This document shows positions 589 to 42,386 of a stretch of 64,000 nt of DNA, in pieces. The stretch covers positions 26,530,254-26,594,253 of the forward strand of contig OZ025260.1 in the NCBI GenBank assembly GCA_964019135.1. Reading direction: 5' to 3'. Position 1 is the stretch's first letter. Each line of letters opens with the position of its first letter. The position numbers and the translations under genes are program-made. The notes beneath the pieces are model-generated. The model saw only the letters and a list, made by a program, of their open reading frames with translations. It had not been told where the DNA came from and did no database searches. This stretch comes from Arenicola marina. Taxonomy: Eukaryota > Annelida > Polychaeta > Arenicolidae.

Positions 589-1823
589 GTTCTCAGGGTG
601 ATCCGTGGCCGGCTGCACCACCAGGTTAGTGTTGGTTAAACCCTTTTGTGACTGAGGGTCTATCTATTTTGCTGGAAGTTTGTATTCTCACGCATAATTT
701 ATTTTCGATCGTGATCTTTTCAATTGGCAATAAGATTTTTGCTGACAATTCATTCTCCCTCCAGATTACGGAGCGGTTCAAAATGTGGCACTCCAAGTGT
801 CTTGTGCTGCGTCCTCCTACCTCTCGTCCAGGTATGGTTGTCAAAGTGTCGTGGATGGGTAAATGCAGGTGTGTACGACTACCACCCGCATGGGTGGGTA
901 AATAACGGCGAAGGAATCGGCGCCTGGAGTCCGTTCAAAACGCAACCGATCGCCGTGAAGCCAGGTTAGCTAATCCCGTAGAGCCTTTCACCGTAGGATT
1001 GTTCCGCTCAAGTCCCGAACAATTTTTTTATTTTGGGATCTGTTGTGTGAAAATTATATTTTGTGTAGAAGGTGGTGCACACGACGATGGCCCGTGTTTT
1101 AAGAAGAATCCTCAATCCTAATATGCGAAAACGGAAGTGTTACAAATATGGCTGTTGCAGCATCTACTGTTTCCCCTTTTCCACCAATGGCAGTGGTTGT
1201 GAAAAGGCTGTGGACGGTATAGTGATTGTGGGAGACCGTCCCTCACATTCCTGGGTGACTAATGGCGAAGGAGTCGGCGCCTGGATAAGCCTCGTTTTCG
1301 ACGCCACCTACGAGGTGGTCGGCGTGCAGCTCCTACAACGATGTCACAGAGACAACCAGAACCGCGGTGTTGAACTCGCCTTCAGAGATGGATCGACACA
1401 GACTGTGATTTTCACGTTTGAGAATTTTGCCTCTCAATTTATATGTTGGAATTTAAAAAAAGTAATTAACTGAAATTGCTTTGTGAAGTGGTCGACATGG
1501 TGGTAAGCTTCATTCGATTTCATGAGAAACAATGTTAATCGGACAGGGGTGTTTGTTCTTCGCTAAAGCAATGCATATGTTAACAGCCTCAGCCAATGTT
1601 ATCCTGTTATTTTAGTAGATAACTTGTGGCTCTGCTGGTGACTTGTTGAAGGTGGAATTAGCCTGCTTCGAGACTAGTATCCTGGACAAGGTTTGTCCGG
1701 AACAAGGCTGGCAGCATTTCAATCTCACGGCTGTCGAGACATCTTACGTGACACTGACAATTCGCAGCGTGTGCACGTCATATAACAGCGGCTTCAGAGA
1801 GATCAAGATCTTGGCTCGTAGAG
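589..1823 (+). CDS. Gene 1 cassette 1: F5/8C-like domain
   Basis: The linker exon 589-624 encodes GSQGDPWPAAPP. Exon 765-831 gives the first strand (DYGAVQNVALQVSCAASS). Exon 1161-1404 gives the core with NGSGCEKAVDGIVIVG, WVTNGEGVGAWISLVF and LLQRCHRDNQN. Exon 1652-1823 gives the C-terminal part with CFETS, CPEQGWQHFNLT and SGFREIKILA. This NVAL...NAVDG...W...GFREI layout is the usual discoidin/F5-8C signature, with an extra set of cysteines. Stretch 832-1160 is a decayed half-domain (GWVNNGEGIGAW, then SVTNMAVAAS) that is out of frame and best read as intron. The donor after the core (gtgatt) is weak. The last codons read R-R-G where the other cassettes have R-T-G or R-S-G. Confidence 0.7.
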
Positions 1824-4800
1824 GTAGGTAATGCCAGAGTCCCCAACGATTGTCATGAATCGGATATAGGCAATTAAACTAATGCAGGATGACTCTTTTT
1901 TGACTGACCTACCTTTGCTGAATGATTCAAAGATAAGGACTTCTTTTTAGTAACTAAAATCGATATTTGGCAACGGAATAAATTACAAACGTGACAGTAC
2001 AGATTGTTATCGGCACTATGGTATATCAATTGAAATAAAAATATTGATTAGATCTAGACTGTCAAACTCATTTGAGGATAGTATCGAAATTAATGCTAGT
2101 TGTAACAATGGTCGGTTATAATAATGCTCTCGTCATACAAGCAAAATACCAATTGTTATATTTTGGTCGCCATAAATAAATGATATGTATACCGAGGTCA
2201 TGGAACAACCAAGTGTTTTATTGGTACAATCATCAGGCTGCTCGTTATTGTATCGTCCGAATATTGGTATTATGTAGTCATAATTCATGCAATATTGGGG
2301 GGCAGCACGCTGTAATTAATCCCGCCTTGCTTGATGTAAAAATTATCGGACATAAACATGTATTCCATAAGAGGCGCAATATTTGAGGTGGAGTAGATAA
2401 TGCCGTATTTTTTGACAACGAAAACTGATAAATTTCGTTCCTTGTAATCTGCGCTACACGTGCTTCCCACTTGTGAAACAAGACAAACACAGCATATCTA
2501 CAAGTCGTATTTTATCGGTGAAGTTTAATACCCTTTGGCCCTTGAGAATCAAATTTGTTCGTGCACTTCCATGTATCCATCAACGAGAAAATAGGCTCAC
2601 TCCAATGGAGCATGACGCCCGTCAGATTCAATGTTAACCTGTGATGTGTGTCGATTGCCCTATGTACACAGCGGTTCTTAGTTATAAAAAACTTACTCTA
2701 AAAACTACCCAGTTCGTGCAGGAATTATATCAGGAGCGAGAGCGTTATTATGTGGCGGGGGTATCAATAGGTGAATTGTTTCCACCGCCACACATTTTTG
2801 CTCTGACAAATTAGAGCTTTAGAAGCTGGTGTGATTGAACGAGTGTCCGTTGACAGAAACAACCATTAAGGTTAATAATTCAACGTATGGAATTTGATAT
2901 CCAATAAAAGAAACACGTCTAAAAGAGCAGAATGGGTGAAAAATCTGAGAACCAAAAAATATGGTCACGTTTTTCAGGTTCTCGGGGTGATCCGTGGCCG
3001 GCAGCACCACCAGGTTAGTGTTGGTTAAACCCCTTTGTGACTGAGGGTCTGTCTATTTTGCTGGAAGTTTGTATTCTCAATCATTTTATTTTCGATCGTG
3101 GTCTTTTCAATTGGCAATAAGACTTTTGCTGACAATTCATTCTCCCTCCAGATTACGGAGCGGTTCAAAATGTGGCACTCCAAGTGTCTTGTGCTGCGTC
3201 CTCCTACCTCTCGTCCAGGTATGGTTGTCAAAGTGTCGTGGATGGGTAAATGCAGGTGTGTACGACTACCACCCGCATGGGTGGGTAAATAACGGCGAAG
3301 TAATCGGCGCCTGGAGTCCGTTCAAAACGCAACCGATCGCCGTGAAGCCAGGTTAGCTAATCCCGTAGAGCCTTTCACCGTAGGATTGTTCCGCTCAAGT
3401 CCCGAAATTTTTTTTTATTTTGGGATCTGTTGTGTGAAAATTATATTTTGTGTAGAAGGTGGTGCACACGACGATGGCCCGTGTTTTAAGAAGAATCCTC
3501 AATCCTAATATGCGAAAACGGAAGTGTTACAAATATGGCTGTTGCAGCATCTACTGTTTCCCCTTTTCCACCAATGGCAGTGGTTGTGAAAAGGCTGTGG
3601 ACGGTATAGTGATTGTGGGAGACCGTCCCTCACATTCCTGGGTGACTAATGGCGAAGGAGTCGGCGCCTGGATAAGCCTCGTTTTCGACGCCACCTACGA
3701 GGTGGTCGGCGTGCAGCTCCTACAACGATGTCACAGAGACAACCAGAACCGCGGTGTTGAACTCGCCTTCAGAGATGGATCGACACAGACTGTGATTTTC
3801 ACGTTTGAGAATTTTGCCTCTCAATTTATATGTTGGAATTTTAAAAAAGTAATTAACTGAAATTGCTTTGTGAAGTGGTCGACATGGTGGTAAGCTTCAT
3901 TCGATTTCATGAGAAACAATGTTAATCGGACAGGGGTGTTTGTTCTTCGCTAAAGCAATGCATATGTTAACAGCCTCAGCCAATGTTATCCTGTTATTTT
4001 AGTAGATAACTTGTGGCTCTGCTGGTGACTTGTTGAAGGTGGAATTAGCCTGCTTCGAGACTAGTATCCTGGACAAGGTTTGTCCGGAACAAGGCTGGCA
4101 GCATTTCAATCTCACGGCTGTCGAGACATCTTACGTGACACTGACAATTCGCAGCGTGTGCACGTCATATAACAGCGGCTTCAGAGAGATCAAGATCTTG
4201 GCTCGTACAGGTAGGTAATGCCAGAGTCCCCAACGATTGTCATGAATCGGATATAGGCAATTAAACTAATGCAGGATGACTCTTTTTTGACTGACCTACC
4301 TTTGCTGAATGATTCAAAGATAAGGACTTCTTTTTAGTAACTAAAATCGATATTTGGCAACGGAATAAATTACAAACGTGACAGTACAGATTGTTATCGG
4401 CACTATGGTATATCAATTGAAATAAAAATATTGATTAGATCTAGACTGTCAAACTCATTTGAGGATAGTATCGAAATTAATGCTAGTTGTAACAATGGTC
4501 GGTTATAATAATGCTCTCGTCATACAAGCAAAATACCAATTGTTATATTTTGGTCGCCATAAATAAATGATATGTATACCGAGGTCATGGAACAACCAAG
4601 TGTTTTATTGGTACAATCATCAGGCTGCTCGTTATTGTATCGTCCGAATATTGGTATTATGTAGTCATAATTCATGCAATATTGGGGGGCAGCACGCTGT
4701 AATTCATCCCGCCTTGCTTGATGTAAAAAATTATCGGACATAAACATGTATTCCATAAGAGGCGCAATATTTGAGGTGGAGTAGATAATGCCGTATTTTT

Positions 4801-7800
4801 TGACAACGAAAACTGATAAATTTCGTTCCTTGTAATCTGCGCTACACGTGCTTCCCACTTGTGAAACAAGACAAACACAGCATATCTACAAGTCGTATTT
4901 TATCGGTGAAGTTTAATACCCTTTGGCCCTTGAGAATCAAATTTGTTCGTGCACTTTCATGTATCCATCAACGAGAAAATAGGCTCACTCCAATGGAGCA
5001 TGACGCCCGTCAGATTCAATGTTAACCTGTGATGTGTGTCGATTGCCCTATGTACACAGCGGTTCTTACTTATAAAAAACTTACTCTAAAAACTACCCAG
5101 TTCGTGCAGGATTTATATCAGGAGCGAGAGCGTTATTATGTGGCGGGGGTATCAATAGGTGAATTGTTTCCACCGCCACACATTTTTGCTCTGACAAATT
5201 AGAGCTTTAGAAGCTGGTGTGATTGAACGAGTGTCCGTTGACAGAAACCACCATTAAGGTTAATAATTCAACGTATGGAATTTGATATCCAATAAAAGAA
5301 ACACGTCTAAAAGAGCAGAATGGGTGAAAAAGCTGAGAACCAAAAAATATGGTCACGTTTTTCAGGTTCTCGGGGTGATCCGTGGCCGGCAGCACCACCA
5401 GGTTAGTGTTGGTTAAACCCCTTTGTGACTGAGGGTCTGTCTATTTTGCTGTAAGTTTGTATTCTCAATCATTTTATTTTCGATCGTGGTCTTTTCAATT
5501 GGCAATAAGACTTTTGCTGACAATTCATTCTCCATCTAGATTACGGAGCGGTTCAAAATGTGGCACTCCGAGCGTCGTGTGCTGCGTCCTCCTCTTCAAG
5601 GTATGATTGTCAAAATGTAGGTGGGTAAACGCAGGTGTGTACGACTACCTCTCGCATGGGTTGATGAATGACGGCGAAGGAATCGGCACCCGGAGTCTGT
5701 TCAAAACGCAACCGATCACCTTGAAGCCCAGTTAGCTAATCCCTTAGAACCTTTGATCGTAGGACTGATCTGCTTAAGTCCTGAATAATCCTTGTGTTTT
5801 GTAATCTGTTGTGTAAGAACTAACTTTTGTGTACAAGGTATTGCACCCGACGGTGACCCGTTTAAAAAAAAGAATCCTCAAACGTAGTATGTGATTACGG
5901 AAATGTTACAAATGGGGCCGTTGCAGCATCTCCTGTTCCTCCCTTTCCGACAGTAGACAACACGGTTGTGCAAATGCTGTGGACGGTGTAGTGATTGTGG
6001 GAGGCAACCCCGTTCATGAGTGGGTGACTAATGGCGAAGGAGTCGGCGCCTGGATCAGCCTCATCTTCGACTCCACCTACGAGGTTGTCGGCGTGCAGCT
6101 GCTACAGCGATGTCACAGAGACAACCAGAACCGTGATGTCGAACTCGCCTTCAGAGATGCATCGACACAGACTGTGAGTTTCACGTTTGAGAATTTTGCC
6201 ACTCCATTTATGTGTTGTAATTTAAAAAAAATTATTGGCTGAGATTGCTTTGTGAAGTGGTTCGACAAGGTGGTAAGCCACACTCGATCGCACACGGTGC
6301 CCGCACCTGACTTTATCAGAAACAATGTTAATTAATCGGACAGGGGGGTTTGTTCTTCGCTAAAGCAATGCATATGTTAACGGCCTCAGCCAATGTTATC
6401 ATGTTACTTTAGTAGATAACTTGTGGCTCTGCTGGTGACTTGTTGAAGGTGGAATTGGCCTGCTTCGAGACTAGTATCCTGGACAAGGTTTGCCCGGAAC
6501 AAGGCTGGCAGCATTTCAATCTCACGGCTGTCGAGACATCTTACGTGACACTGACAATCCGCAGCGTGTGCACGTCATCTAACAACGGCTTCAGACAGAT
6601 CAAAATACTGGCTCGTACAGGTAGGTATTGCCAGAGTCTTCAACGATTGTCATGAATCCGAGATAGGCAATTAAACTAATGCAGGATGACTCTTTTTCGA
6701 CTGACCTACCTTTGCTGAATGATTCAAAGATAAAGATTTCTTTTTAATAACTAAAATCGGTATTTGGCAACGGAACAAGTGACAAACGTGACAGTACAAA
6801 TTGTTATCGGACCTATGGTATACCAATTGAAATAAAAAATATTGATTATATATAGACTTTCTGGCCGGATATAATAATGCCCACGTCATGCAAGCAAAAT
6901 ACCAACTGGTATGTTTTGGTCGCCATCAATAAATGATATGTATACTGAGGTCATGGAACAACCAAATGTTTTATTGGTACAATCATCAGGCTACTCATAA
7001 TTGCATTGTCCGAATATTGGTAATATGTAGTCATAATTCATACAATATTGGGGGGCAGCACGCTGTAATTAATTACGCCTGGCTTGATATAAGGAATTAT
7101 CCGACATAAACATTTATTCAGTAAGAGGCGCGATATTTAAGGTGGAGTAGATTATGCCGTATTTTTCAAAAACGAACACTGATGAATTCCTCTTAGAGCT
7201 CCTTGTAATCGACGCTACACGTGTTTCCCACTCGTGTAACAAGACGAACGAAGCATATCTACAAGTCGTGTTTTAATGGTGAAGTTTAATACCCCTTTGG
7301 CCCTTGTGAATCAAATGTGTTCGTGCACTTACATGTATCCATCAACGAGAAAATAAGCTTACTCCAATGGGGCATGACGCAGTTAGATTCAATGTTAACC
7401 TGTGGTGTGTCGAATGTCATCTGTACACAGGGGTTCTTAGTTATCAAAACTTACTATATAAAATACCCAGTTCGCGCAAGAATTATATCAGGAGCGAGAG
7501 TAGTATCAATAGGTGAATTGTTTCCACCGCCACACATGTTCGCTCTGAAAAAATTAGAGCTTCAGAAGCTGATGTAATTAAGCAAGTGTCACAGTTGCCA
7601 GAAACATCAATTCCGCGGAATAAATCACCGTGTGAAATTTGATATATAGTGCAAGAAACACGGCTATACCAGCCGAATGGGTGCACAATTTGAGAACATA
7701 GAAATGTGGTCACATTTTTCAGGTTCTCGGGGTGATCCGTGGCCGGCAGCACCACCAGGTTAGTGTTGGTTAAACCCCCTTTTGTGACTGAGGGTCCATC

Positions 7801-10800
7801 TATTTTGCTGGAAGTTTGTATTCTCACGCATAGTCTATTTTTGATCGTGGTCTTTTCAATTGGCAATAAGATTTTTGCTGACAATTCATGTTCCATTCAG
7901 ATTACGGAGCGGTTCAAAATGTGGCATTCCAAGCGTCGTGTGCTGAGTCCTCCTACCTCTCGTCCAGGTATGGTTGTCAAATTGTCGTGGGTGGGTCAAT
8001 GCAGGTGTGTACGACTACCGCTCGCATAGGTGGATGGATAACGGCAAAGGAATCGGCGCCCGCGGTCCGTTCAAAACGCAAACGATCGCCACGAAGCACG
8101 GTTAGCTAATCTCGTAGAACCTTTGATCATAGAATTGACCTGCTCAAGTCCTGAACAATATTTTTATGTTGTGAACTGTTGTGTAAGAACTATTTTTGGT
8201 GTAGAAGGGGCTGCACCCGACAGTGACCGTGTTTGTCAAGAAGAATCCGCAATCGTAGTATGTGATTGCGGAAGTGTCACAAATGTGGCCGTTGCAGCAT
8301 CTCATATTCCTTCTATTCATACAGCTCCGTCGACGGTTGTCAAAATGCTGTGGACGGTGAAGTGATTGTGGGAGACCGTCCCTCACACGAGTGGGTGACT
8401 AGGGGCGAAGGAGTCGGCGCCTGGATCAGCCTCGTCTTCGACGCCACCTACGAGGTCGTCGGCGTGCAGCTCCTACAGCGATGCCACAGAAAGAACCAGA
8501 ATCAAGATATCACACTCGCCTTCCGAGATGGCTCTACACAAGCGGTCCGATTTACTTTTGACTCTTAGATTGAAATCTCTTTCGTATGAAACGTTTGAGA
8601 ACGTTGCCACGTTATTTATATGTTGGAATTTTTAAAAATCAATTGGCTGAGATTGCTTGGTGAAGTGGCTCGACAAGTTGGTAAGACATATTCGACCTCA
8701 CATGGCGAGGGCACTTGATTTTAACAGAAACAATGTTCATCGGACAGGGGTATTTACTCTTCGCTAAAATCATGCATATGTCAGATGCTTTCGGTAATGG
8801 TATTGCGTTGCTTCATTCGATAATTTGTGGCTTTGCTGGTGACTTGTTGAAGGTGAAATTAGCCTGCTTTGAGACCAGTATCCTGGACAAGGATTGTCCG
8901 CAACAAGGCTGGCAGCATTTCAATCTCACGGCTGTCGAGACATCTTACGTGACATTGACAATCCGCAGCGTGTGCACGTCATCTAACAGCGGCTTCAGAG
9001 AGATCAAGATCCTGGCTCGTGCAGGTAGGTATTGCCAGTATGCAACTCTATGCATGATTACGAGATCGGTAATTAAACTACTGACGGATGACTACCTTTC
9101 GCCTGACCTACCTTTGCTGCGTGAATCGAAGATATGGACTTTTATTTATTAAATAAAACGTTTATTATGCTACCAAACAAATTAAAAGCGTGACATAGTA
9201 CAGATTGTTATCGCAACAATGGTGCAAAAAATAAAGTTAATATAATGATTACATACTTTCAAAGTCCTAAGTGGATAATATCAAAATCCATGATACTTGC
9301 CACAATGGCCGGATATATTTAAAGCTGGTTCATGCTCTCCTCGTAGAAGCAAAATGCCAATCGGTATGTTTTGGCCGCCATAAATAATTGATCAGAATAC
9401 TGAGGTCATGCAGCAACCAAGTGTTGTATTGGTACAACAATCAGGTTACTCGTAATTGTATTGTGCGAATATTGGTAGTACGTAGTCATAATTTATACAA
9501 TATCGGGTGGCAGTACACTGCTATTATTCACACTTTGTCTGATGGAAGATATTCTTCTGCCTAGACGTTTATTCCCTGAGGGGCGCGATATTTGAGTTAT
9601 TCAGAGTAGATTAGGCCGTAGTTGTCGACAAAGAACACTAATGAATTCCATTCAAAGCTCCTCGTAATCTGCTCTGGGCGTGTTTCCCACTAGTGAAACA
9701 AGTTGCGCGAAGCATATCTACATGTCGTGTTTTAATGGTGAAGTATAATGTATACTCCTTTGCGCCTTGAGCATCAAACATGTTCATGCACTTACGTGTG
9801 CTCATCAACGAGAAAATATGCTTACGCTAATGGGGCATGACGTATTTACACTTAAAAATAGGTAGTGGTTAGGTGTGTCGATCGTCATATATATTGATTG
9901 GCGCCCAGTGGTACCTAGTGACACAACACCTAACCCAGCTAACAATTGAACGTTTCGCGAACGTTAATAGAGGGTTCGCTGAGGGTTTCGCGAACGTTCA
10001 CATGGAACGTTCGAGGTACGTTCGCCAGGAAAGTTTTGTTTACGTCAGTTGAACCTTTAAGCCAACGTTCGCTGAACGTTCACATGGAACGTTCGAGGTA
10101 TGTTCGCCAGGAAAGTTTTTGTTACGTTAATTGAACCTTCAAGCGAACGTGCGCTGAATGCTTAAAAAAACCGCTACCTCACATTTTGCTAACGTGCGAC
10201 AAACGATCAAATTACAATCCAGTCACACGAAACGATATAACCATGTGATGTATAATTCCATTTAATAGTACAAGCCATAATGATGGCCGCTCCAATCCGC
10301 TGGCCGTGGAGTACTCGTTAACATGCCCGCACGAGCGACAAAAAAAACATAAGAACAAAGGGTAATAATAGGGGTACCTACTATTGACCCCCATGATAGA
10401 CCACAAGTTACTGGTATCTTAGATAGCCTGATTATACAGACATTTAGACTGCTATTAAGATTTGTTACTAACATAATTGATCACATTATTGCTACCCTGT
10501 CCCTACCTTCCAGCAAAACTGCCTATCAAAATCCCACCCGGCGAACGAAGCCAATTACTTCAGTGCCAATTCTAGACACAATGGGACAGGCTTATTTATT
10601 TTCTTGTGGGGGGGGGGGCCTACTGTGGCTTAAGCCCCCCCCCCACCCCACCCCCTGGTAAAGCCGCAGAAGCCCCCTCGTAAATAAATAAGCCTATCCT
10701 ATGTCCAGGAGCAGCAGTCTGATGCTGACGAAAGGCCAGAACCGCCCCCCCCCCCACTTCTGCTGCCTAAGCACTGTAATCGCGAAATTCAAGCCCCCAC

Positions 10801-13800: not shown

Positions 13801-16800
13801 GGGGGGGGAGTTACGTTGGCCACATTATTTTGGATCAAGAACGCTAGGCCTATAGCATATAATGATAATCTAATTAGAACTAAAATGCAATGATACACGG
13901 CCATTCGAGGAACGTTCCCGGAAGGTAGCTATATGCACGACCGTTCGGAGAACGTTCCCAGAAGGTAGCTTTACATCCCATTAATCAACGGTTAATTTTA
14001 TGCTCAGTTTCAGTTTCAGGGAACGTTCTTCCCTGTAGCTTTCAACAGAAGGAAGCTAAAATCTAAATATTCCAGGAACGTTCCCGGAAGGTATCTCTCC
14101 AACCGAATCAGGCCGTAGCGTTCATTGAGCGTTCGCAGAAGGCTAAACGCTAACGTAACCAAAATATAACCCCCAGCGAACGGTTCGCTGAACGTTCGGT
14201 GTTTGCTGGGAACTGTATAAACTACCCAGTGCGTACAGGAATTATACTAAGATCATGAGTCTTATCATGTGGCGGTAGTATCAATGTGTAAATGACATGC
14301 AACGTCCCAATGTTCGCTCCGATCAATTAGTTGGCATCCGTACGTCTGCGAAAGAAGATGGATTTTGCAACTTTGATTTCAATTGATACGCTTATGATTG
14401 AATTAGCCTATCTGTGACCGACAGAGCTCGCCGCATTCAGCGCATCGTTGACCTGTCGATAGGTCTTGGTTTGTACTTACTAGGCGCCTAGATTGGCGTT
14501 TCGAGTCCAGTTTCTCAAACCAGAGCCCGTCGTTGCGGACCATTCCTTCGCGCAGGACACGTGCACATTCATTTTTTTCGAATGGTACATATTCCCAAGA
14601 ATTTGAATCGATGCCAAAAGCCTTACAAATATCCTTAAACCTGAGCTTTGGCCGTCCAGTTGGCCTTTTGCCCTCAGCAAGCTCACCGTATAGCATATCC
14701 TTTGAAATGTGTTCATTCTGCAGTCTATGAACGTTTCTAAGACAACAAAGACAACAAAGGCAACGAAGGTGAAACTTTTAAAAAAAAAATCTTGGCCATA
14801 ATACGTAGTTTACGTTTCACTGCCACACAGCTGGCTAATTAGAACACACGCACTGTAGATTATGATTTTGGTGCGACCAGTTAGAGCCATAGAAAGCTGT
14901 TGTAATTGAATAAGTGACACAGTTGCCAGAAACGTTCATTTTGGTTAATACATCACAATATGACATTTGATATATAATATAAGGAACACGGTAAAATCCG
15001 CCAAATGGGTGCACAATTTGAGAACATAGACATGTTGTTACGTTTTTCAGGTTCTCGGGGTAATCCGTGGCCGGCTGCACCACCAGGTTAGTGTTGTTTA
15101 CACCCTTGTGACTGAGTGTTTATTTTGATGGAAGTTTGTATTTTCATGCATAATTTATTTTTGATCGTATTCTTTTTACTTGGCAATAATATTTTCGCTG
15201 ATAATTCATTCTCCATTCAGATTACGGAGACGTTCAAAATGTGGCACTCCAAGCGTCGTGTGGAGCGTCCTCCCTCCTCGCGTCCAGGTATGGTTGTCAA
15301 AATGTCGTAGATGGGTAAATGCAGGTGTATACGAATAACTCTCTCATGGGTGGGTGAATAACGGCAAAGAAATCGGCACCGGGAGTCCGTTCAACATACA
15401 ACCAATCGCCGTGAAGCCCGGTTACATAATCCGTAGAACTTTGATCGTAGGATTGATCCGCTCAATTTCTGAATAATCTTTGTATTTTGTGATCTGTTGC
15501 GTAAGAAATATATTTTGTGTAGAAGGTGGTGCACGCGACGGTGACATGTTTTTTTAAGAAAAATCAATAATCCTAGTATGTGTTTACAAAAGTGTTACAA
15601 ATGTCGCCATTGCAGCATCTCTTGTTCCTCCTTTGCCTACAGTAGCAATTACGCTTGTCAATATGCTGTGGATGGTGTCGTGATTGTGGGAGACGTTCCC
15701 TCACATGAGTGGGTGACTAATGGCGAAGGAGTCGGCGCCTGGATCAGCCTCGTCTTTGACGCCACCTACGAAGTTGTTGGCGTGCAACTCCTACAACGAT
15801 GTCACAGAACGAACCAGAACCGCGGCCTCGAACTCGCCTTCAGAGATGGTTCTAGACAAGCTGTGCGATTTACCTTTGAGTTTTATAATCAATTCAGTGT
15901 CGTGTACAACGTTTGGAAGGTTGCTACTCCATTTATATGTTGAAGGGTTCTAAAATCTATATTGACTGAGATTGCTTTGTGATTTGGTACGAAAAGGTGG
16001 TAAGCCATATCCGACCACACAAGGCGCCCACACCTTATCAGATACATTGTTGTTGGGGCTGGTGTTAATTTTTCGCTGGAGCAATGCATATGTCAGCAGT
16101 TTCAGGTAACGATATTGCGTTGCTTTAGTAGATAACTTGTGGCTCTTCTGGTGACTTGTTGAAGGTGGAATTGACATGCTTTGAGACCAGTATCCTGGAC
16201 AAGGCTTGTCCGGGACAAGGCTGGCAGCACTTCGACCTCACTCCTGTGGTGACATCTTACGTGACACTGACAATTCGCAGCGTGTGCACCTCACTTAACA
16301 GTGGCTTCAGAGAGATCAAGATCCTGGCTCGTACAGGTAGGCATTGCCAGTCTTTAACAATTGTCATGAATCCGAGATGGGCAATTAAATTAATGAAGGA
16401 CGACTATCTTTCGCCTGACCTACACTTGCTGGAAGATTCAAGGATAAATACTTCTTTTTATTAATCCATTAATGCCCAGGTATAGCCCGCGTCAACATTT
16501 TTCTTTTTTGAAATCCATGATACTTGCGACAACTGCCCGATATATTTAAATGTTGGTTGCAGCTCTAGTCGTACAAGCAAAATGCCAAATGAGGTGTTTT
16601 GGTCGCCATAAGTAGATGATATATATACCGAGGACATGGAACAACCCAGCGTTTTATTGATACAATCATCAGGCTACTCGTAGTTTTATTGTGCAAATAT
16701 TGGTAGTCATAATTCATACAATATTTGGAGGTAATACACTGGAATTAAGGTAAGCACCCCATAACAAGGTAAAAGAACTCCGTATTTGTGATTATTTGTT

Positions 16801-19800
16801 GAAAGTATATTCAAATAAACACCTACTGGGGAAGTTTTATGATACTTTACCGTGTCGTTAAAAAAATATTCTTCATTTAGAGCTGCTCATGCAGCAATTT
16901 TTTACTTCAATTATGGTTTGCGAAATATTTTGGAAACACATTTAGAACAAATTGTCTGAATGTATAAATGTAACCTTCATGACAAATAGATCTGTCATCG
17001 CATGATGAAAGATATACAACTGGCGCAATATGCATATTTCGATGACGTAGTACACAAGAGTCACACTTTTTCACATGGGATGCACTAATTTTGCCAAAAA
17101 AAGAGGCTTAACAAAATATCTGGGTTTTATTGCACACCATAGGTGTACTTATATGCTAAGAATATCAACACATAATTTCCAATCAAAATAGTTTTTACAT
17201 TTTTCAAGAAAAATATTACTTAATGAGTAACTTTAACAATTTTACCCCTATTTCACAAAATGATCAAAACTTGACACCTACTACGAATATAAAATGTTAC
17301 AATTCAGCTCAATGTTAAGTCAGTATCACCAGTAATAACTCATCGGAAAATTAGAACCTAGTGTAATGCATGAATGATCTTAAAACATTTAAATAGTAGC
17401 ATCAAAAATAACAGAATGATAATGATATATGAATCCAATTATGCGACATCAGGATAGTTTTTGCCAAAAGTCGAATTAACTACTTTCACAAATTGGCTAT
17501 AATTTCATCAAATATCCAATTCTGGACACCAAACTACTGTTAAAGATTTCTACAAACATAGATCCTGCAATACAAATATAGATAAAAGTGCAATATGACA
17601 ATTATGGCAATTGGATTCGTCGAAAGTTGCGGTGATTGCACGAGCGACACAGTTTCGGTTAATAATTCACCGTATGAAATTTGCGATGTAATATAAGGTA
17701 CATGGCCAAACCAGAAGAGCGGGTGCACAATTTGAAAACCTAGAAATGTTGTTACGTTTTTCAGGTTCTAGGGGTGATCCGTGGCCAGCTGCCCCACCAG
17801 GTTAGTGTTTTTTACACCCTTCTGACTGAGCTTCTATTTTGCTGGAAGTTTGTATTTTCACGCATAATTTATTTTCGATCGTGGTCTTTTCAATTGGCAA
17901 TAAGATTTTCGCTGATAATTTATTCTCCATCCAGAGTACGGAGACGTTCAAAATGTGGCACTCCAAGCGTCGTGTACTGCTTCCTCCTACCTCCGGCCCA
18001 GGTATGATTGTCAAAATGTCGTTGGGTAAATGCAAGTGTTTACTACTACCGCTCGCATAGGTGGGCGGATAACGGCGAAGGAATCGGCGCCTGGAGTCCG
18101 TTCAAAACCGTCGCCGTGAAGCCCGGTTAGCTAATCCGGTAGAACCTTGGAACGTCGGATTGGTCTGCTCAAGTCCCGAACAATCTTTCCATTTTGTGAA
18201 CCGTTGTGTCTATCTATTGTGTAAAAGGTGGTGCACCCGACGGTGACCCGTTTAATTTTTACAGAAGCCTCTTCATTTTTAGAATGTGATTATGGAAGTG
18301 TTACAAATGTGACCGTTGCAGCAACTCCTGTTCCTCCTTTGCCTACAGTCGAAAGTACGGTTGTCAAAATGCTGTGGACGGTGAAGTGATTGTGGGAGAC
18401 ATCCCCTCACATGAGTGGGCCACTAATGGCGAAGGAGACGGCGCCTGGATCAGCCTCGTCTTCGACGCCACCTACGAGGTTGTTGGCGCGCAGCTCCTAC
18501 AGCGATGTCACAGAGACAACCAGAACCGTATTGTCGAACTCGCGTTCTCGGATGCCTCAAAACAAATGGTAATAATGAGGACTGCATATGTCACAACACT
18601 TCATATAAAGTGTTATTAATCTATAATTTGCAATGTTCCGCGCAGCGTTATGCTTTTCTATTAACTGTATGTTGATATACTTGCAAACCCACTCGGAGGG
18701 AGATCATAAAATACACTGTGACGAAATCAGTTTTCTTTGCCGAAGATGAGCAGATAGAATGCCTGTTGGCAAGGCCCCTTGCGTTTTTGATTCTGGATCT
18801 CCTACCGGTCCCATTATTTTGTCCTTGGTCCTTGTCCTAAGGTCTTTGAACCTACTAAAAGTAGATCCCTAAACCAAAATGTTGAATCCGAGCCACGGAA
18901 CCTTTCTATTTCGTTTGCCATCAATGTTATCTTAGGTGATCCTACATGCATATACGGTCTAAAAGTATGTTTGAACATATTTTGTTCTAGTCTTTTAAAA
19001 GATTGAGAAATCAAAATATAATCATTATAATCACACGCATATTACTGGCTATATTTTACATTAGATTGTTTTCCTGTATGAATCCATAAGGTTGCATCTT
19101 AAAACAAGCTCAAGGCTCAGGACATGAACATATTGATGAGATTAAGACATATTTATTATGAAAATATAGATATGATGATCCAATTTTAAATTGTGCCATA
19201 CATATGATGTCTGTAAGTTGCTGTTTGACGTATTATGCTACAAAATGTGTGCATCCAACGCCGCCTTTATTAATAAATATTGCTAGTATGAATTCGCCTA
19301 CTTCATTTAAGATTTAATGTTAACAACAGCAGATAATGGGTGTAGTAGTAATGCTTCAAACTTTTTTTAAGAATAATTGCATGAATGTCTATATGTTTTA
19401 AAACGACTTATGAATACACGCGATTCAATCATTCAAACCTTATATGTTCCTACATCTATCTATTTATCTAGGTAACACTGGAATGCTTTGAAACGAGCAT
19501 TCTGGCCAACGCTTGTCCGGACCAAGGGTGGCAGCACTATGATCTAAAAACCGTTTTCACATCAAGTGTTAAACTAACCATTAGGTCGGTGTGTTCTGCG
19601 GTTAATAGCGGCTTCCGGGAAATTAGGATTTTGGCTCGTGGAGGTGAATCTTTTTTTCAAATATTGCATTCTACCACAAACTAAGTTAGCCTACTGGATC
19701 ATATAGTTAATATATAGATTATGATTATTTTGTGCGTCAGCGGTATAATTATTGCCCAGTATACATGAAACATTCTTCGCAAGATTAAGGTTAATAATCT

Positions 19801-22800
19801 ATCCGCTCATCCCTTTAGTATTGAATTTGTCGTGTTAGTGGATGCAACCAGGCATCAGTATGGAATTATAAACTCATATAGATGATGCATATGTATTCCA
19901 TTAAAAGGTAATGTTTGTGATCACATATCAGGTGGGGATGTCGTTCCCAGGACGACAGGTCAGTGGTCTCAATCGCAATACACCTATTTATAATTTAGAA
20001 ATCATCGCAAATAATAATCCATCAAATTGTCAATATTGCGTTGTTATGTAGCTGCATATGTTTGGTGTATATGTTTTTAATTCCAAATTCTCATTTTATA
20101 AAATTGCTGACCATGGCATTCGTAACATAGAATTAAGGTCATTCCGTAGTCAATACAGTCTATAAGATAGCTTATGATGTCGCTGAAATAGGTTGTAAAT
20201 TGCCCCTTAGCTTCAAGAATGGCTATAAGGAGTTATCTGGACTACATAACAACGATCGTATTTGTAAAGTTGCATTGTTCAAGGCATACATATGTTTTTT
20301 TCGCAGCGACAACCACAACCACTTTTACGTTGCCGGTCAGACAACGCTTCCAGATCCTTCCTAACTACGGTCCCGTGGCGGGAGGCACCCATATCAACAT
20401 TACACACGCCCAGCTGAATGGCCGCACGCTGTCCAAGCTGGTCCTCGTGGGTCCTAACTTAGACCTCGCCATCTCAAACAGGTTGAGTATCAGGCTTTAA
20501 AAGCTCACATTGAGTCCTAACCAAAAGCTGCGGAGAAAGTTCTTCGAAATAAGTGTTGAAAATGAAGTAGTATATTGAACAGACATGATGACGATTAAAC
20601 GTACTGGGGCCACATGGCAGACTGGCGGACGCGTGACGACTGAACACGCAGGGTTCACACATGGACCACACGAGCCGACTCAACACACATAATATGCACA
20701 GGATCACTTGGAGTACATATGGATCACCATGCAAAATCATGATGATAATAGTTGTAATTAGTCGGGTGAAAACATTGATCACATTGTTCTGAGTGTATGT
20801 TAAGCTTCTTGATATTAACTGCAAATCTGCAAATATGGGGAACTAGCCCGATCGATATAGAGGGCAAGTGACCGCGCACCATCGGATCACTAGTTCAATT
20901 CCTCCTGGTGTCACAGGTTATTTTATGATTTTCCCTTCCATTGCATCGGGGGTTCCGTGACCCAATTTAGCTTTATAGTGAGCAGCAATGGCCAAAAGGG
21001 TCAATTATCATGCATGGTTTATCGCGTTGATTAAGCATTAAGTTGTAATGCTGGTGTTTCCAGGACGTACACGAGCGTGATTGCAGTCACGCCTGCCGTC
21101 GACTCGTCCCATGCCAATCGCCGGTACCCGATCTACTTGGTGTACACCAACGGCACCAGTGTGAATACAGAAGTCATGTTTCAGTACAAAGACAACCCCC
21201 GGATCACCAGTATTGAACCACGTGTCTCCATTGCGCGGTGAGTGCAGAAACTGTCATCTGCATCGTGCCACGCGATTCCATTTGAGCGGAAGGTATGAGG
21301 TTGTGGTATCCATCGTGCCGCGTGTCTTCATTGTCCACATCATATGGTTAGTGCCATGTATAATGTAAAACATTTTGAGGCATGTAATGGTTTTCTACCT
21401 GAAATTCAAACTAAACCTCGAATGCCATTTTTTATATATTATACATATGTTAGAATGCAATGGTTCTCATCTAAATGACCAGGCGAAATGGGCCAGATTA
21501 CATGGATTTATATTGCCTTGATAACTGAAACAAGGAATGTCTGTGTTTCATTGTACCATTGTTTCTTCCTGAATTCCTGTTCCGTTTGAGTTTTTTTCTA
21601 AATACCATTTTGTTTCAAAAACGTTATAACAAATGTCGTATATATCTGCTGGCAATTGTTTTTATTTCTGCTGCAGAGGGGGCATACAGCAGTGGGCACA
21701 GGGTAAAAACCTGGATGGAGTGGCTGAACCCCGCTTGTTTGTATACATGACGTACATCGACTTGCTGTCACCGGAACGCCAGAAGAACGAAACCTTCACT
21801 GGGGTACAATCAGACAATCCTGGAAATATATTTATATGCATATATTATAATTTGTGGCACAGGGATAACATTATAAGGGTGAAGCAACGTATATGGCCAT
21901 GACATAGGCATAATTTATGTTTAATATATCAATGACAATAATGTAAAATCAAGGAGAAACACGATCAGAACAAGTTTGGGTCTCCGCCATACAGGATTGT
22001 GCGGTGGACAGCCCTGTGTTGATGACGTGCTGGTCTCCGGAGTTCAACTTCAGTCAGGACATCATTACGACGATCAGCGAGCGAGAGGAACATAACGTGG
22101 AGGCGCCTCTGTATAATGACACCTTCCTTCAGTTCTATCTGGGCTTCAAGCTGGACGGGGTGGACGAGTACAGGAACCTGAGCCAGCACCCGGAACTGGA
22201 GGACCAAGGGGTGCTGACTCTGTACTCGGTGACCCCAGTTGTTCACCGACTTGATGGAGTTCATGAGCATGACCCGAGCGAGGACGTTCCTCTCGTGCTT
22301 ATGGTATGTAATGTTTCACTTTATGAATAGTATGAATTTTTAGTATACTACCCTAGATCCATCGAATTAGTGGCTGTGACAGTAGTTCCGCATATATCAT
22401 ATGTATACGTCTAATGAACTTTGTTTGCTGCTTTCCCCTTGTTTGTCGTTTGCTAAATGATTTGTGACTAACCGTATTATCGTACTTTTCTCAAGGGTGA
22501 GCATCTGAATAGTGGAGTATCGAAGGAGGACTTCACTGTAGAAATTGGTCAAGGAGAGTACAACGTGACGACTGTGGCTGCGTCTTCCCTTACCTGCCAT
22601 CTGCCTCCCATTGCCCCGGCGCCGAAAGCTGAACAGGAAGAACTCTCCATCACAGTAAGCTACATTCAATTACATTGAACGAAATAAATCAGTTACACAG
22701 AATAAACTCCTCTTGGCAACGGACTTCGAATGTCATTTAGTCCTGATTATGAAGCGAAATTGTCGGTAACACAATTAGCTGCAGTAATTGGCGTTCTCAC

Positions 22801-23192
22801 TGAGAGACTGAAGATATTTTTCCCAACGATAAAACAATATACGCAACACGTGACATGTTTTGATACCCAATCTAGCGACGGTAGATAATAAATGTCATTT
22901 TGTGTTTTTTCACTTGCCTTAGGTTAAAATCGGTCGCCTTTTGTCTTATAACGTCGGCAAGGTGACATACGTGAAACAGGCATCATCATGGGTTCTGATT
23001 GGTTCCACTGTGGGAGGCGCGGTGGTGGTGGTAGGGGTGGTCCTTGTGGCTGTGACCGTTTACTGCCACCGTCGGAGAAAAGCGAAGGCAACAAACGCCC
23101 TGTCAGATGATGACGTCATAGAGATTCCGTCTCTTCCCGGGAACGTCGTGCGCGATACCATGGAACAGAGAACTGATGCCACCATCGGGTGA
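589..23192 (+). CDS. Gene 1 (3' part): discoidin-like array + plexin-type IPT stalk + transmembrane receptor
   Basis: This multi-exon gene lacks its 5' end. Predicted exons: 589-624, 765-831, 1161-1404, 1652-1823; 2978-3013, 3152-3218, 3548-3791, 4039-4210; 5366-5401, 5540-5600, 5927-6173, 6449-6620; 7723-7758, 7901-7967, 8298-8544, 8853-9024; 15051-15086, 15221-15287, 15616-15862, 16165-16336; 17765-17800, 17935-18001, 18322-18568, 19472-19643; 19932-19958; 20307-20481; 21064-21237; 21677-21803; 21995-22303; 22496-22654; 22923-23192. The phases join without a break (1-1-2-0-1 in each cassette, then 1-1-2-2-0-0-0-stop). The protein has six F5/8C-like domains of about 172-174 residues including linkers, then IPT/TIG segments resembling the last plexin IPT domains, one membrane helix and a tail of about 41 residues. 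There is no sema, PSI or RasGAP region in the window. It is a type I surface receptor by inference and its ligand is unknown. The domain exons are well supported. The splice sites inside the six cassettes, above all the split first domain exon, are less certain. Confidence 0.75.
2978..4210 (+). CDS. Gene 1 cassette 2: F5/8C-like domain (near-copy of cassette 1)
   Basis: The exons are 2978-3013, 3152-3218, 3548-3791 and 4039-4210, offset about 2,387-2,389 bp from cassette 1. Exon sequences are almost identical to cassette 1: the linker reads GSRGDPWPAAPP and the C-terminal exon ends ART-G instead of ARR-G. Introns and spacer are near-identical too, so this is a recent whole-unit duplication. 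The intronic half-domain relic (3219-3547) and the weak gtgatt donor after the core exon were copied with it. The predicted domain is 173 residues including the linker. Confidence 0.7.
5366..6620 (+). CDS. Gene 1 cassette 3: F5/8C-like domain
   Basis: The exons are 5366-5401 (linker), 5540-5600, 5927-6173 and 6449-6620. The first domain exon is 6 nt shorter than in the other copies but keeps the same phase. The core exon is 3 nt longer and reads DSRQHGCANAVDGVVIVGG, then VHEWVTNGEGVGAWISLIF. After the core, ACT is followed by gtgagt, the best donor among the older cassettes. The C-terminal exon has CFETS, CPEQGWQHFNLT and NGFRQIKILA (Q in place of the usual E). The relic at 5601-5926 carries stops and a short deletion, which supports its reading as intron. 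Confidence 0.7.
7723..9024 (+). CDS. Gene 1 cassette 4: F5/8C-like domain
   Basis: The exons are 7723-7758, 7901-7967, 8298-8544 and 8853-9024. The core reads SYSSVDGCQNAVDGEVIVG, then HEWVTRGEGVGAWISLVF and LLQRCHRKNQNQDITLAF. It differs from its neighbours by R for N in the TNGEG loop and K for D after QRCHR. The donor after the core is gtccga, which is poor; without splicing the frame continues only to a stop about 24 nt on. The relic at 7968-8297 is the least decayed copy, with an open stretch from EGAAPDSDR to SVTNVAVAAS, but it is still out of frame with the core. It shows that the relic was once the exon's own N-terminal end. Confidence 0.65.
9025..9933. other. Inter-cassette spacer, cassette 4 to 5 (left part)
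   Basis: The sequence is homologous to the other spacers up to about 9930, where the match stops at the inverted-repeat element. There is no exon here. Confidence 0.6.
9970..10150. repeat. Subterminal tandem repeat, about 90 bp x 2
   Basis: Two copies of a block containing ACATGGAACGTTCGAGGTA, GTTCGCCAGGAAAGTTT and a TTGAACCTT stretch, with few differences, inside the left end of the TIR element. Confidence 0.6.
10586..10704. repeat. Small inverted repeat around G/C homopolymers
   Basis: ACAGGCTTATTTATTT at the left is answered by AAATAAATAAGCCTAT at the right, enclosing a G12 run and C-rich runs. It resembles a 120-bp MITE nested in the larger element. Most of 10150-13130 otherwise holds C-rich tracts and AT-rich sequence with no gene I can support. 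Confidence 0.4.
11262..11520. repeat. ATACCATGGTAT palindrome cluster
   Basis: About a dozen or more variants of ACCATGGTATACCATGGT and TAAATTACCATGGTAA, each self-complementary, separated by a TTTTGAAACAGG spacer in two places. The array can form cruciforms or hairpins at many registers. It lies inside the 4.28-kb element. Confidence 0.7.
13131..13233. repeat. Near-perfect foldback, about 48-bp arms, 6-nt loop
   Basis: The left arm ends CAGTTTGACAGTCTGATGCT and the right arm begins AGCATCAGACTGTCAAACTG, with ACAGTA between them. The arms pair over about 48 bp with one mismatch and one single-base indel. The origin could be a recent inverted duplication, a small foldback element or a hairpin RNA gene; the sequence does not decide. 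Confidence 0.75.
13893..14110. repeat. GGAACGTTCC-type subterminal repeats, right end of element
   Basis: Several copies of GAACGTTCCCGGAAGGTA and close variants, alternating with short unique sequence. They mirror the GAACGTTC-rich left end. Confidence 0.6.
14331..14880 (-). mobile_element. LINE 3'-end relic (C-terminal coding fragment)
   Basis: On the minus strand from about 14735 to 14403 an open frame reads VHRLQNEHISKDMLYGEL, GKRPTGRPKLRFKDICK, GIDSNSWE and ends with a finger-like RCAECGELCRSQIG. This is the usual C-terminus of many invertebrate non-LTR retrotransposons (a YGEL.GKR.GRPKLR.KD block, then C..CG..C.S.IG). The reverse transcriptase itself is absent, as expected of 5' truncation. 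The spacer homology stops at about 14330 (ATTAG) and resumes at about 14881 (TTAG), which brackets the insertion. Confidence 0.7.
15051..16336 (+). CDS. Gene 1 cassette 5: F5/8C-like domain
   Basis: The exons are 15051-15086 (linker GSRGNPWPAAPP), 15221-15287, 15616-15862 and 16165-16336. The first strand reads DYGDVQNVALQASCGASS. The core reads AYSSNYACQYAVDGVVIVGD, then PSHEWVTNGEGVGAWISLVF and QRCHRTNQNRGLELAF. The C-terminal exon has ACPGQGWQHFDLTPVVTS, closer here to the gene 2 type (TPVVTS) than to cassettes 1-4 (TAVETS). The donor after the core (gtgcga) is weak. The relic at 15288-15615 contains stops in both former frames. Confidence 0.7.
16337..17764. other. Spacer between cassettes 5 and 6 with AT-rich insert
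   Basis: 16337-16745 and about 17620-17764 are homologous to the other spacers. The piece between (about 16746-17610) is AT-rich and has no counterpart in them, so it looks like an insertion or a replaced segment. I see no coding signal or recognisable transposon ends. Confidence 0.5.
17765..19643 (+). CDS. Gene 1 cassette 6 (last): F5/8C-like domain with divergent C-terminal exon
   Basis: The exons are 17765-17800, 17935-18001, 18322-18568 and 19472-19643. The core reads SRKYGCQNAVDGEVIVGD, then PSHEWATNGEGDGAWISLVF, and ends KQM before a good gtaata donor. The C-terminal exon is clearly more diverged than in any other cassette: VTLECFETSILANACPDQ, GWQHYDLKTVFTSSVKLTI, NSGFREIRILA. The intron before it is about 900 bp and unlike the roughly 250-bp introns of cassettes 1-5. 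This junction joins the repeat array to the plexin-like part, so the terminal exon may be the ancestral one that escaped homogenisation. Confidence 0.75.
18569..19471. other. Long intron inside cassette 6
   Basis: AT-rich, with no ORF, repeat or element that I recognise. Confidence 0.5.
19932..19958 (+). CDS. Gene 1 linker microexon (27 nt)
   Basis: The exon sits between an ATCAG acceptor and a gtcagt donor, phase 1 to phase 1, and encodes GGDVVPRTT. It sits where every cassette has its 36-nt linker exon and joins the last F5/8C-like domain to the IPT region. Its call rests on splice sites, phase and position only. Confidence 0.6.
20307..20481 (+). CDS. Gene 1 IPT/TIG exon a
   Basis: After a TTTTTTTCGCAG acceptor it encodes a Thr-rich lead and then RFQILPNYGPVAGGTHINIT, the standard opening of an IPT/TIG domain (xIxPxxGPxxGGTxIxI), as in plexins and Met-type receptors. 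Phase 1 in, phase 2 out at AG followed by gttgag. Confidence 0.8.
20841..20916 (+). repeat. Possible tRNA-like SINE head in an intron
   Basis: CACTAGTTCAATTCCTCCTG contains a B-box-like GTTCAATTCC. Upstream AGAGGGCAAGTGA is a poor A box. Weak evidence. Confidence 0.25.
21064..21237 (+). CDS. Gene 1 IPT exon b: end of one IPT, start of the next
   Basis: It encodes YPIYLVYTNGTSVNTEVMFQ then YKDNPRITSIEPRVSIAR. The F.Y..DP.I..IEP..SI pattern is the boundary before the next IPT domain of plexins (vertebrate PlexinA has a comparable DPTIVRIEPEWSIVSG). The phase is 2 to 2, with donor gtgagt. One N-glycosylation sequon (NGT) is visible. Confidence 0.8.
21677..21803 (+). CDS. Gene 1 IPT exon c
   Basis: It encodes GGIQQWAQGKNLDGVAEPRL then VYMTYIDLLSPERQ and NETFTG. 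This is the plexin pattern of a Gly-containing loop followed by GxxLDxxxxP. Enters in phase 2, leaves in phase 0 before gtacaa. It contains a potential sequon (NETF). Confidence 0.75.
21995..22303 (+). CDS. Gene 1 IPT exon d
   Basis: It is 309 nt, phase 0 to 0. It opens with DCAVDSPVLMTCWSPEFN, matching the C....(S/T).(M/L).C.(A/S)P end of a plexin IPT. It goes on to FYLGFKLDGVDEYRNLS, then LTLYSVTPVVHRLDGV and DPSEDVPLVLM. This is the stretch between two plexin IPT domains, in the order seen in plexins. Confidence 0.8.
22496..22654 (+). CDS. Gene 1 IPT exon e (membrane-proximal IPT)
   Basis: It is 159 nt, phase 0 to 0. It encodes GEHLNSGVSKEDFTVEIGQG, then NVTTVAASSLTCHLPP. It corresponds to the plexin segment with GxNL, YTVLIG and the V...QLLC..P end. 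The sequon NVT is present. Confidence 0.8.
22923..23192 (+). CDS. Gene 1 last exon: transmembrane helix and short cytoplasmic tail
   Basis: It is 270 nt ending in TGA. It encodes VKIGRLLSYNVGKVTYVKQ, then a hydrophobic helix of about 24 residues starting at WVLIGSTVGGAVVVVGVV, a stop-transfer HRRRKAK, and a tail with DDDVIEIPSLPGNV and EQRTDATIG before the stop. A plexin would continue into a juxtamembrane coiled coil and split RasGAP; nothing of that kind follows here. No clear AATAAA lies close downstream. The frame is continuous and the membrane topology is obvious, so the truncated tail looks real. Confidence 0.85.
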   Translation, partial: VKIGRLLSYNVGKVTYVKQASSWVLIGSTVGGAVVVVGVVLVAVTVYCHRRRKAKATNALSDDDVIEIPSLPGNVVRDTMEQRTDATIG

Positions 23193-42316: not shown

Positions 42317-42386
42317 ATGGAGTATTCTAGTATTCTCCGGGTGTGGCTTCTGGTCGTGATACTGAAGACGCAGACAACACCAACCG
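42317..42386 (+). CDS. Gene 2 first coding exon: signal peptide
   Basis: The 23 residues from the ATG form a typical signal peptide: a short polar start MEYSSILR, a hydrophobic core VWLLVVIL, then the polar KTQTTPT. The exon ends in phase 1 at a good gtaagg donor. Phase 1 is what every cassette linker exon needs. Joined to the linker exon at 52626 it gives TPT-GSQDQPLPSLPP in frame. The start has a fair context (ATCCATGG). The link spans a 10.2-kb intron and is inferred from phase, strand and the lack of any other upstream exon, so another partner cannot be excluded. Confidence 0.55.

Follow-up and report, generated by a model that had tools for sequence, protein, structure and literature searches.

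Does the array of discoidin-like domains encoded on contig C13 (OZ025260.1) of Arenicola marina belong to the same gene as the plexin-type IPT exons that follow it and, if so, what kind of protein does this combination represent? The window, that is, the whole stretch of 64,000 nucleotides analysed here, corresponds to C13:26530254-26594253 within an 867-Mb genome of 762 contigs. A preliminary description of its sequence had joined cassettes at 589-19643 and IPT exons at 20307-23192 into one chimeric receptor via the joins 19643/19932/20307. Both sets of exons proved to be genuine and are held by a single open gene model, in which these joins are correct and keep the frame. The model (gene B; Table 1) comprises 34 exons (31 inside the window) with 4653 nt in total, every splice site being AG/GT, and gives one open frame of 1550 amino acids with no internal stop when the candidate first exon (see below) is left aside. 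Its order is seven DUF7402 domains, three plexin/Met-type IPT domains, a membrane helix, and a tail of 41 amino acids in which neither a RasGAP nor a kinase domain was found; six of the DUF7402 domains lie in the window and the seventh (unit 1) sits about 2 kb before its start. We consider it probable that gene B belongs to a family of single-pass membrane receptors expanded by tandem duplication, with an adhesion or recognition head and, in some members, an intron that arose by exon duplication.

Table 1. Exons, introns, and genes read in and next to the window (positions count from its first letter; phases are given as start-end).
Feature	Position	Strand	Details
Gene B cassette 2	589-1823	+	linker exon 589-624 (phase 1-1), Dn1 765-831 (1-2), Dn2 1194-1404 (2-0), Dc 1652-1823 (0-1)
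Gene B cassette 3	2978-4210	+	2978-3013, 3152-3218, 3581-3791, 4039-4210
Gene B cassette 4	5366-6620	+	5366-5401, 5540-5600, 5954-6173, 6449-6620
Gene B cassette 5	7723-9024	+	7723-7758, 7901-7967, 8325-8544, 8853-9024
Gene B cassette 6	15051-16336	+	15051-15086, 15221-15287, 15643-15862, 16165-16336
Gene B cassette 7 (terminal type)	17765-19643	+	17765-17800, 17935-18001, 18349-18568, 19472-19643
Introns inside gene B domain exons	832-1193, 3219-3580, 5601-5953, 7968-8324, 15288-15642, 18002-18348	+	
Linker exon	19932-19958	+	27 nt, phase 1-1; connects last gene B cassette to stalk
X1	20307-20481	+	first half of IPT a (GPVAGGT); end phase 2
X2	21064-21237	+	remainder of IPT a and start of IPT b (DNPRITSIEP); phases 2-2
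X3	21677-21803	+	IPT b (GKNLDGV); phases 2-0
X4	21995-22303	+	IPT b to IPT c; phases 0-0
X5	22496-22654	+	IPT c (GEHLN); Pfam TIG 23.3 bits, cut-off 20.9
X6	22923-23192	+	end of IPT c, membrane helix, 41-aa cytoplasmic tail, stop codon (23190-23192)
Candidate first exon of gene C	42317-42386	+	start codon, signal-peptide-like stretch, phase-1 donor GTAAGG
Gene C (paralog)	52626-64000	+	eight cassettes, domain exons unsplit, internal period 1551 bp
Gene C beyond the window		+	last cassette; IPT/TM exons 66505-69730

The repeated domain had been described as F5/8C-like, with at least six copies. Six copies are indeed present in the window, but their best family is DUF7402 (PF24135) and not F5_F8_type_C (PF00754) itself: a spliced unit of the neighbouring gene C scored 59.8 bits against DUF7402 (Pfam cut-off 27) over profile positions 1-132 of 133 and a spliced unit of gene B (cassette 5) 57.5 bits over the whole profile length, as compared to 26.8 and 22.7 bits, respectively, against F5_F8_type_C, both under its cut-off of 28.2. 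The Dn frame of gene B cassette 2 matched DUF7402 with 41.8 bits, and one unit scored 26.3 bits against NADase_discoid (cut-off 38). We regard DUF7402 as a relative of F5/8 type C, and the label "discoidin-like" is a fair one. The spliced domain shares with F5/8 type C proteins a weak near-full-length match to their profile, but differs from them in its family and in six cysteines that are invariant across the 16 domain copies compared. No solved structure was matched in PDB sequence searches with the domain, so its galactose-binding-type fold is only inferred; likewise, no papers on DUF7402 were found in the open literature. The domains are connected by short, proline-rich linkers. Seven of the twelve linkers in gene B and its upstream neighbour, gene A, contain the letters RGD (GSRGDPW or GSRGDSW), and the internal linkers of genes C and D read GSPANPW.

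In the 184 kb around the window, A (-57 to -43 kb), B, and C are arranged in tandem on one strand, and a fourth paralog (D) and a damaged copy (F) lie further right of C. The models of A, B, C, and D consist of 26, 34, 31, and 19 exons (110 in total), with AG/GT at every splice site and a frame that stays open up to the terminal stop codon; leaving out the candidate first exon, they encode 1222, 1550, 1705, and 1059 amino acids with 5, 7, 8, and 4 DUF7402 domains, respectively. Genome-wide searches, with matches grouped by hand, returned at least 157 matches for the domain (150 of 216 candidates scored) and at least 115 for the stalk (103 of 218 candidates scored). The domain N-half and the stalk occur together at 12 C13 loci between 26.206 and 26.728 Mb, namely on the + strand in Z (26.425), A, B, C, D, and E (26.714) and on the - strand in G1-G6 (26.206-26.354); a further locus, G7 (26.385-26.390), combines the domain C-half with the stalk. 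Outside C13, the domain and stalk/TIG matches listed never coincide. DUF7402 matches on other contigs were seen mainly on C9 and C20, those on C9 being clustered far from any listed IPT match. The cassette spacing of E (C13:26713740-26728023) is nearly the same as that of A (C13:26473020-26487383), and E may represent a recent duplication or an assembly duplicate.

Since the stalk had been attributed to a plexin, its relationship to this family is central to the question of origin. The spliced IPT part of gene B scored 40 bits against TIG (Pfam cut-off 20.9), and a phmmer search of PDB with its 321 amino acids returned nine sequences, all of which are Plexin-A1, A2, A4, or Met (best E 5.7e-10). 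The strong match extends over about residues 2-128, while a weak second one (about 222-291) keeps its order in the three alignments listed and falls close to the C-terminus of the plexin chains. In the worm's own genome, sema (PF01403) gave 11 and PSI (PF01437) 17 matches at E ≤ 0.05, none of them on C13, and the 11 genome-wide matches of the plexin RasGAP domain (PF08337) are confined to two loci on C1, which look like ordinary plexins. The gene B family, with no match to these three domains on C13, is therefore not a plexin, and a complete sema-containing plexin using the IPT exons, the case that the preliminary description had held against its own reading, did not turn up. Of the plexin features, membrane-proximal IPT domains are present in the family, and sema, PSI, and the cytoplasmic RasGAP are absent. 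Gene B thus resembles plexins and Met in its membrane-proximal IPT domains, its single membrane pass, and a phase-2 intron at the matching place within IPT, but differs from them in having no sema, PSI, or RasGAP/kinase domain and a DUF7402 array as its head. The domain order of plexins is described in the available text of PMC6374515 as stable across all clades; here, a plexin-type IPT block is used without sema, PSI, and RasGAP. No paper on a combined discoidin/plexin/IPT/TIG architecture was found in the open literature.

The idea of a plexin-derived chimera accordingly stands in part: both parts are found in one model and recur at 12 C13 loci, but a plexin as donor of the stalk is not established. 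That a plexin lost its sema, PSI, and RasGAP domains and gained discoidin-like exons is an unlikely course of events in our view. It would agree with plexins being the best solved-structure matches and with the phase-2 intron, which was also seen (by eye) at the matching IPT position of the plexin-like locus at C1:11.475 Mb; however, Met matches the stalk too, and no C1 plexin is among the stalk matches listed at E 0.01 (103 of 218 candidates scored). Instead, the best match outside C13 among these lies on C6, where EGF/ephrin-receptor-like modules precede the stalk in the one locus read. In this locus (L046, 43.757 Mb; C6:43757200-43763700), stretches matching X1-X4 were found; as judged by eye, they are interrupted at X2, X3, and X4 in phases identical to those on C13 (2, 2, 0, 0; X1 end not located), and the X4 of this locus is 35-37 % identical to that of C13. 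Four further C6 loci among the matches listed also match X4. Upstream of the stalk exons are a Thr/Pro-rich stretch, an Ephrin_rec_like module (38.3 bits), and an EGF_CA module (34.5 bits); this head would presumably be part of the same gene as the stalk. The C6 locus and gene B are hence alike in their stalk exons and different in their upstream modules. A plexin-type IPT block that carries a DUF7402 array in one place and lies near EGF/ephrin-receptor-like modules in another points to the stalk as a reusable platform, and this plexin/Met-type stalk may already have been put to other uses by the time it was combined with the DUF7402 array.

A second question concerns the exon–intron structure of the domain itself. 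The N-half of the domain is a single exon in C, D, and cassette 1 of A and B, whereas in 10 of the 12 A/B cassettes this exon is split by a phase-2 intron of 347-362 bp, a feature that had been overlooked in the preliminary description, as had the paralogs and the candidate first exon. Part of the first 97 nt of each of the ten introns matches the exon past the split in the expected register and better than the best of 200 shuffles each. In the A2 intron, 74 of 98 bases match from the first intron base onwards; in the other nine, the 5′ match comprises about positions 51-97 and not the first 50. At the opposite end, the last 61 nt of the ten-copy consensus align with the start of the exon (Dn1 consensus) up to the same CAG (score 39 versus a shuffle maximum of 27; 0 of 2000 shuffles), and none of the ten single intron 3′ ends beat its own shuffles when compared with the C exon. 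The relic frame within the intron shows a pooled dN/dS of 1.23 (8 of the 10 copies) and thus appears to evolve without clear constraint. The same value, together with a stop in two copies, led us to reject E3 (33 codons within the split intron) as an alternative coding exon, and a reading of the A/B domain exon as one continuous exon was also dropped, as the frame breaks in 10 of 10 copies.

From these similarities, the split intron most likely originated from a tandem exon duplication in which the stretch between two CAG sites became the intron. In A and B, the domain exon would have been duplicated in tandem, and splicing from AG|GTATG of the first copy to the matching CAG of the second would have turned approximately one duplication unit into an intron. 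The opposite direction, i. e., an old intron that was lost in C, D, and the first cassettes, seems very unlikely: with paralogous exons standing in for an outgroup species, unsplit copies are found in C and D as well as in cassette 1 of A and B, and the similarity of both intron ends to the exon would be left unexplained by a loss. The newborn intron would have been placed inside the most variable loop of the domain. The splice junction falls at alignment columns 21-30, the most variable part, with a mean entropy of 1.66 as compared to 0.13-0.84 in the other bins (16 of 24 copies), a peak that partly represents the difference between split and unsplit copies because gaps were counted as letters. 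The intron-bearing copies fall into two groups in a tree of Dn2, a pattern that makes exchange between cassettes likely and requires either gene conversion or some more intricate history. According to the available text of PMC4974935, few cases of intron birth by exon duplication are proven, and in the known examples (ATP2A1, potato RdRp) the new intron lies between the duplicates and an exonic AG|GT is used. Unlike these, the present intron resides in a repeated cassette, recurs in ten cassettes of two genes, and is predicted from genomic DNA. Ten split cassettes with unsplit sisters in the same arrays provide a natural test case for intron birth by duplication.

Are these cassettes still functional coding units? 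Pooled dN/dS ratios, for which the sequence pairs are not independent, amount to 0.35 for the core of the domain N-half and 0.21 for the C-half (24 copies each), and to 0.19-0.55 for the six IPT/TM exons (four genes each; 0.22 for X2, 0.19 for X4), the value for X1 being rough since the stretch used for C and D started 9 nt before the acceptor. This supports the view that the domain halves and stalk exons are coding and under purifying selection. Dn1 reached a pooled dN/dS of 2.11 over 21 codons (9 of the 10 copies, the shorter B4 being omitted), which, given the non-independent pairs, is not taken as proof of positive selection. Furthermore, the Dn-Dc intron between the domain halves contains in-frame stops in 24 of 24 cassettes, so splicing is needed; an intron-retention product of the C type, suggested by open frames of 254-258 amino acids, is excluded on the same grounds. 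An array of pseudogenes with broken A/B cassettes is highly improbable: the unspliced A/B exon copies do not read through owing to frameshifts and stops, and G3 and F are damaged, but all ten split A/B cassettes share a phase-2-matched donor and acceptor that yield a full domain, and the pooled dN/dS of the domain core lies well under 1, that of the relic being close to 1. Not every locus, however, is an intact gene, as in-frame stops occur in five of the six - strand domain matches and, in G3, inside both the domain and X5. In the first cassette of A and B, the exon is open, the flagged stops falling outside it. The damaged copy F (window 150683-157005; L027, L028) has stalk exons with a relic and no intact cassettes, and most of its X4 is missing.

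That the array and the stalk are instead two neighbouring genes, one encoding discoidin-like domains and the other an IPT membrane protein, is hardly credible. Although a gap of 620-663 bp separates the last cassette from X1, in A, B, C, and D the phases match through the 27-nt linker exon and the frame is continuous. Moreover, the two parts occur together at 12 loci and nowhere else in the genome among the matches listed, and the terminal cassette type accompanies the stalk in five loci. A single clade (support 1.000) unites the terminal Dc exons from A, B, C, D, and G3, with the internal B6 copy next to it, and the first Dc exons from A-D make up another (support 0.978). Through the former clade, the last cassette is linked to the stalk, which speaks against separate genes.

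A, B, C, and D are each preceded by a conserved candidate for the missing 5′ end, which combines a start codon and a hydrophobic stretch with a phase-1 GTAAGG donor; the gene B counterpart begins at -20876, before the window. A 35-base probe with up to three mismatches gave eight matches in the genome, on C13 only (0 for a reversed-pattern control). Seven of these lie upstream of a locus and on its strand (Z, A, B, C, D, E, G7), and the eighth is an orphan copy between C and D (window coordinate 90340; C13:26620593) whose translation is identical to that of the candidate first exon of gene C. No probe match within three mismatches was detected at G1-G6. The phase-1 donor fits the first linker exon, and the candidate would be joined to cassette 1 over 10-18 kb. 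A frame starting with MTNVSS was dropped as a signal exon, since it runs into a stop and has no phase-1 donor, and conserved blocks about 8-13 kb upstream of A, C, and D were considered non-coding by eye.

Gene structure, open frames, domain content, recurrence, and purifying selection are demonstrated here at the level of the genomic DNA. Regarding function, the architecture suggests that the DUF7402 array, whose domains on short proline-rich linkers are probably of the galactose-binding type, would form a multivalent head with which the receptor adheres to, or recognises, glycans or proteins. Below it, the three IPT domains of plexin/Met type, followed by the membrane helix and the short tail, would act as a stalk that keeps this head off the membrane, and any signal would presumably be passed on via partners, as the tail carries no enzyme. 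The length of the array would change by duplication of phase 1-1 cassettes. A functional analogue may be seen in the Tgr proteins of Dictyostelium, likewise a multigene membrane family with TIG/IPT domains, which act in cell-cell recognition; there, however, the TIG domains themselves are said to bind, and a DUF7402 array is not mentioned in the available text (PMC12324515). More speculatively, and with considerable doubt on our side, the C13 cluster might constitute a diversifying recognition system, with varying cassette numbers, remodelling by tandem duplication and gene conversion, and a new intron in a variable loop. If so, shifts of splice sites and decay of the duplicate would add variety in length and sequence to the presumed binding site, and the IPT stalk, combined with other heads in other tandem clusters, would be a general platform for recognition receptors.

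Several further features of the window deserve mention. Between cassettes 5 and 6 of gene B, frames at 14403-14809 (- strand) resemble, by eye, what we take to be the end of a LINE-type reverse transcriptase, and a palindrome-rich tandem repeat (ACCATGGTATACCATGG) is located at 11261-11463. An open frame at 49301-49852 (- strand) resembles part of a Ty3-type retroelement polymerase/RNase H, again as judged by eye. Finally, an 18/27-bp tandem repeat extends from 46349 to 46912, with about 31 copies of the 18-bp unit at a match of 91 %, and is open in several frames.
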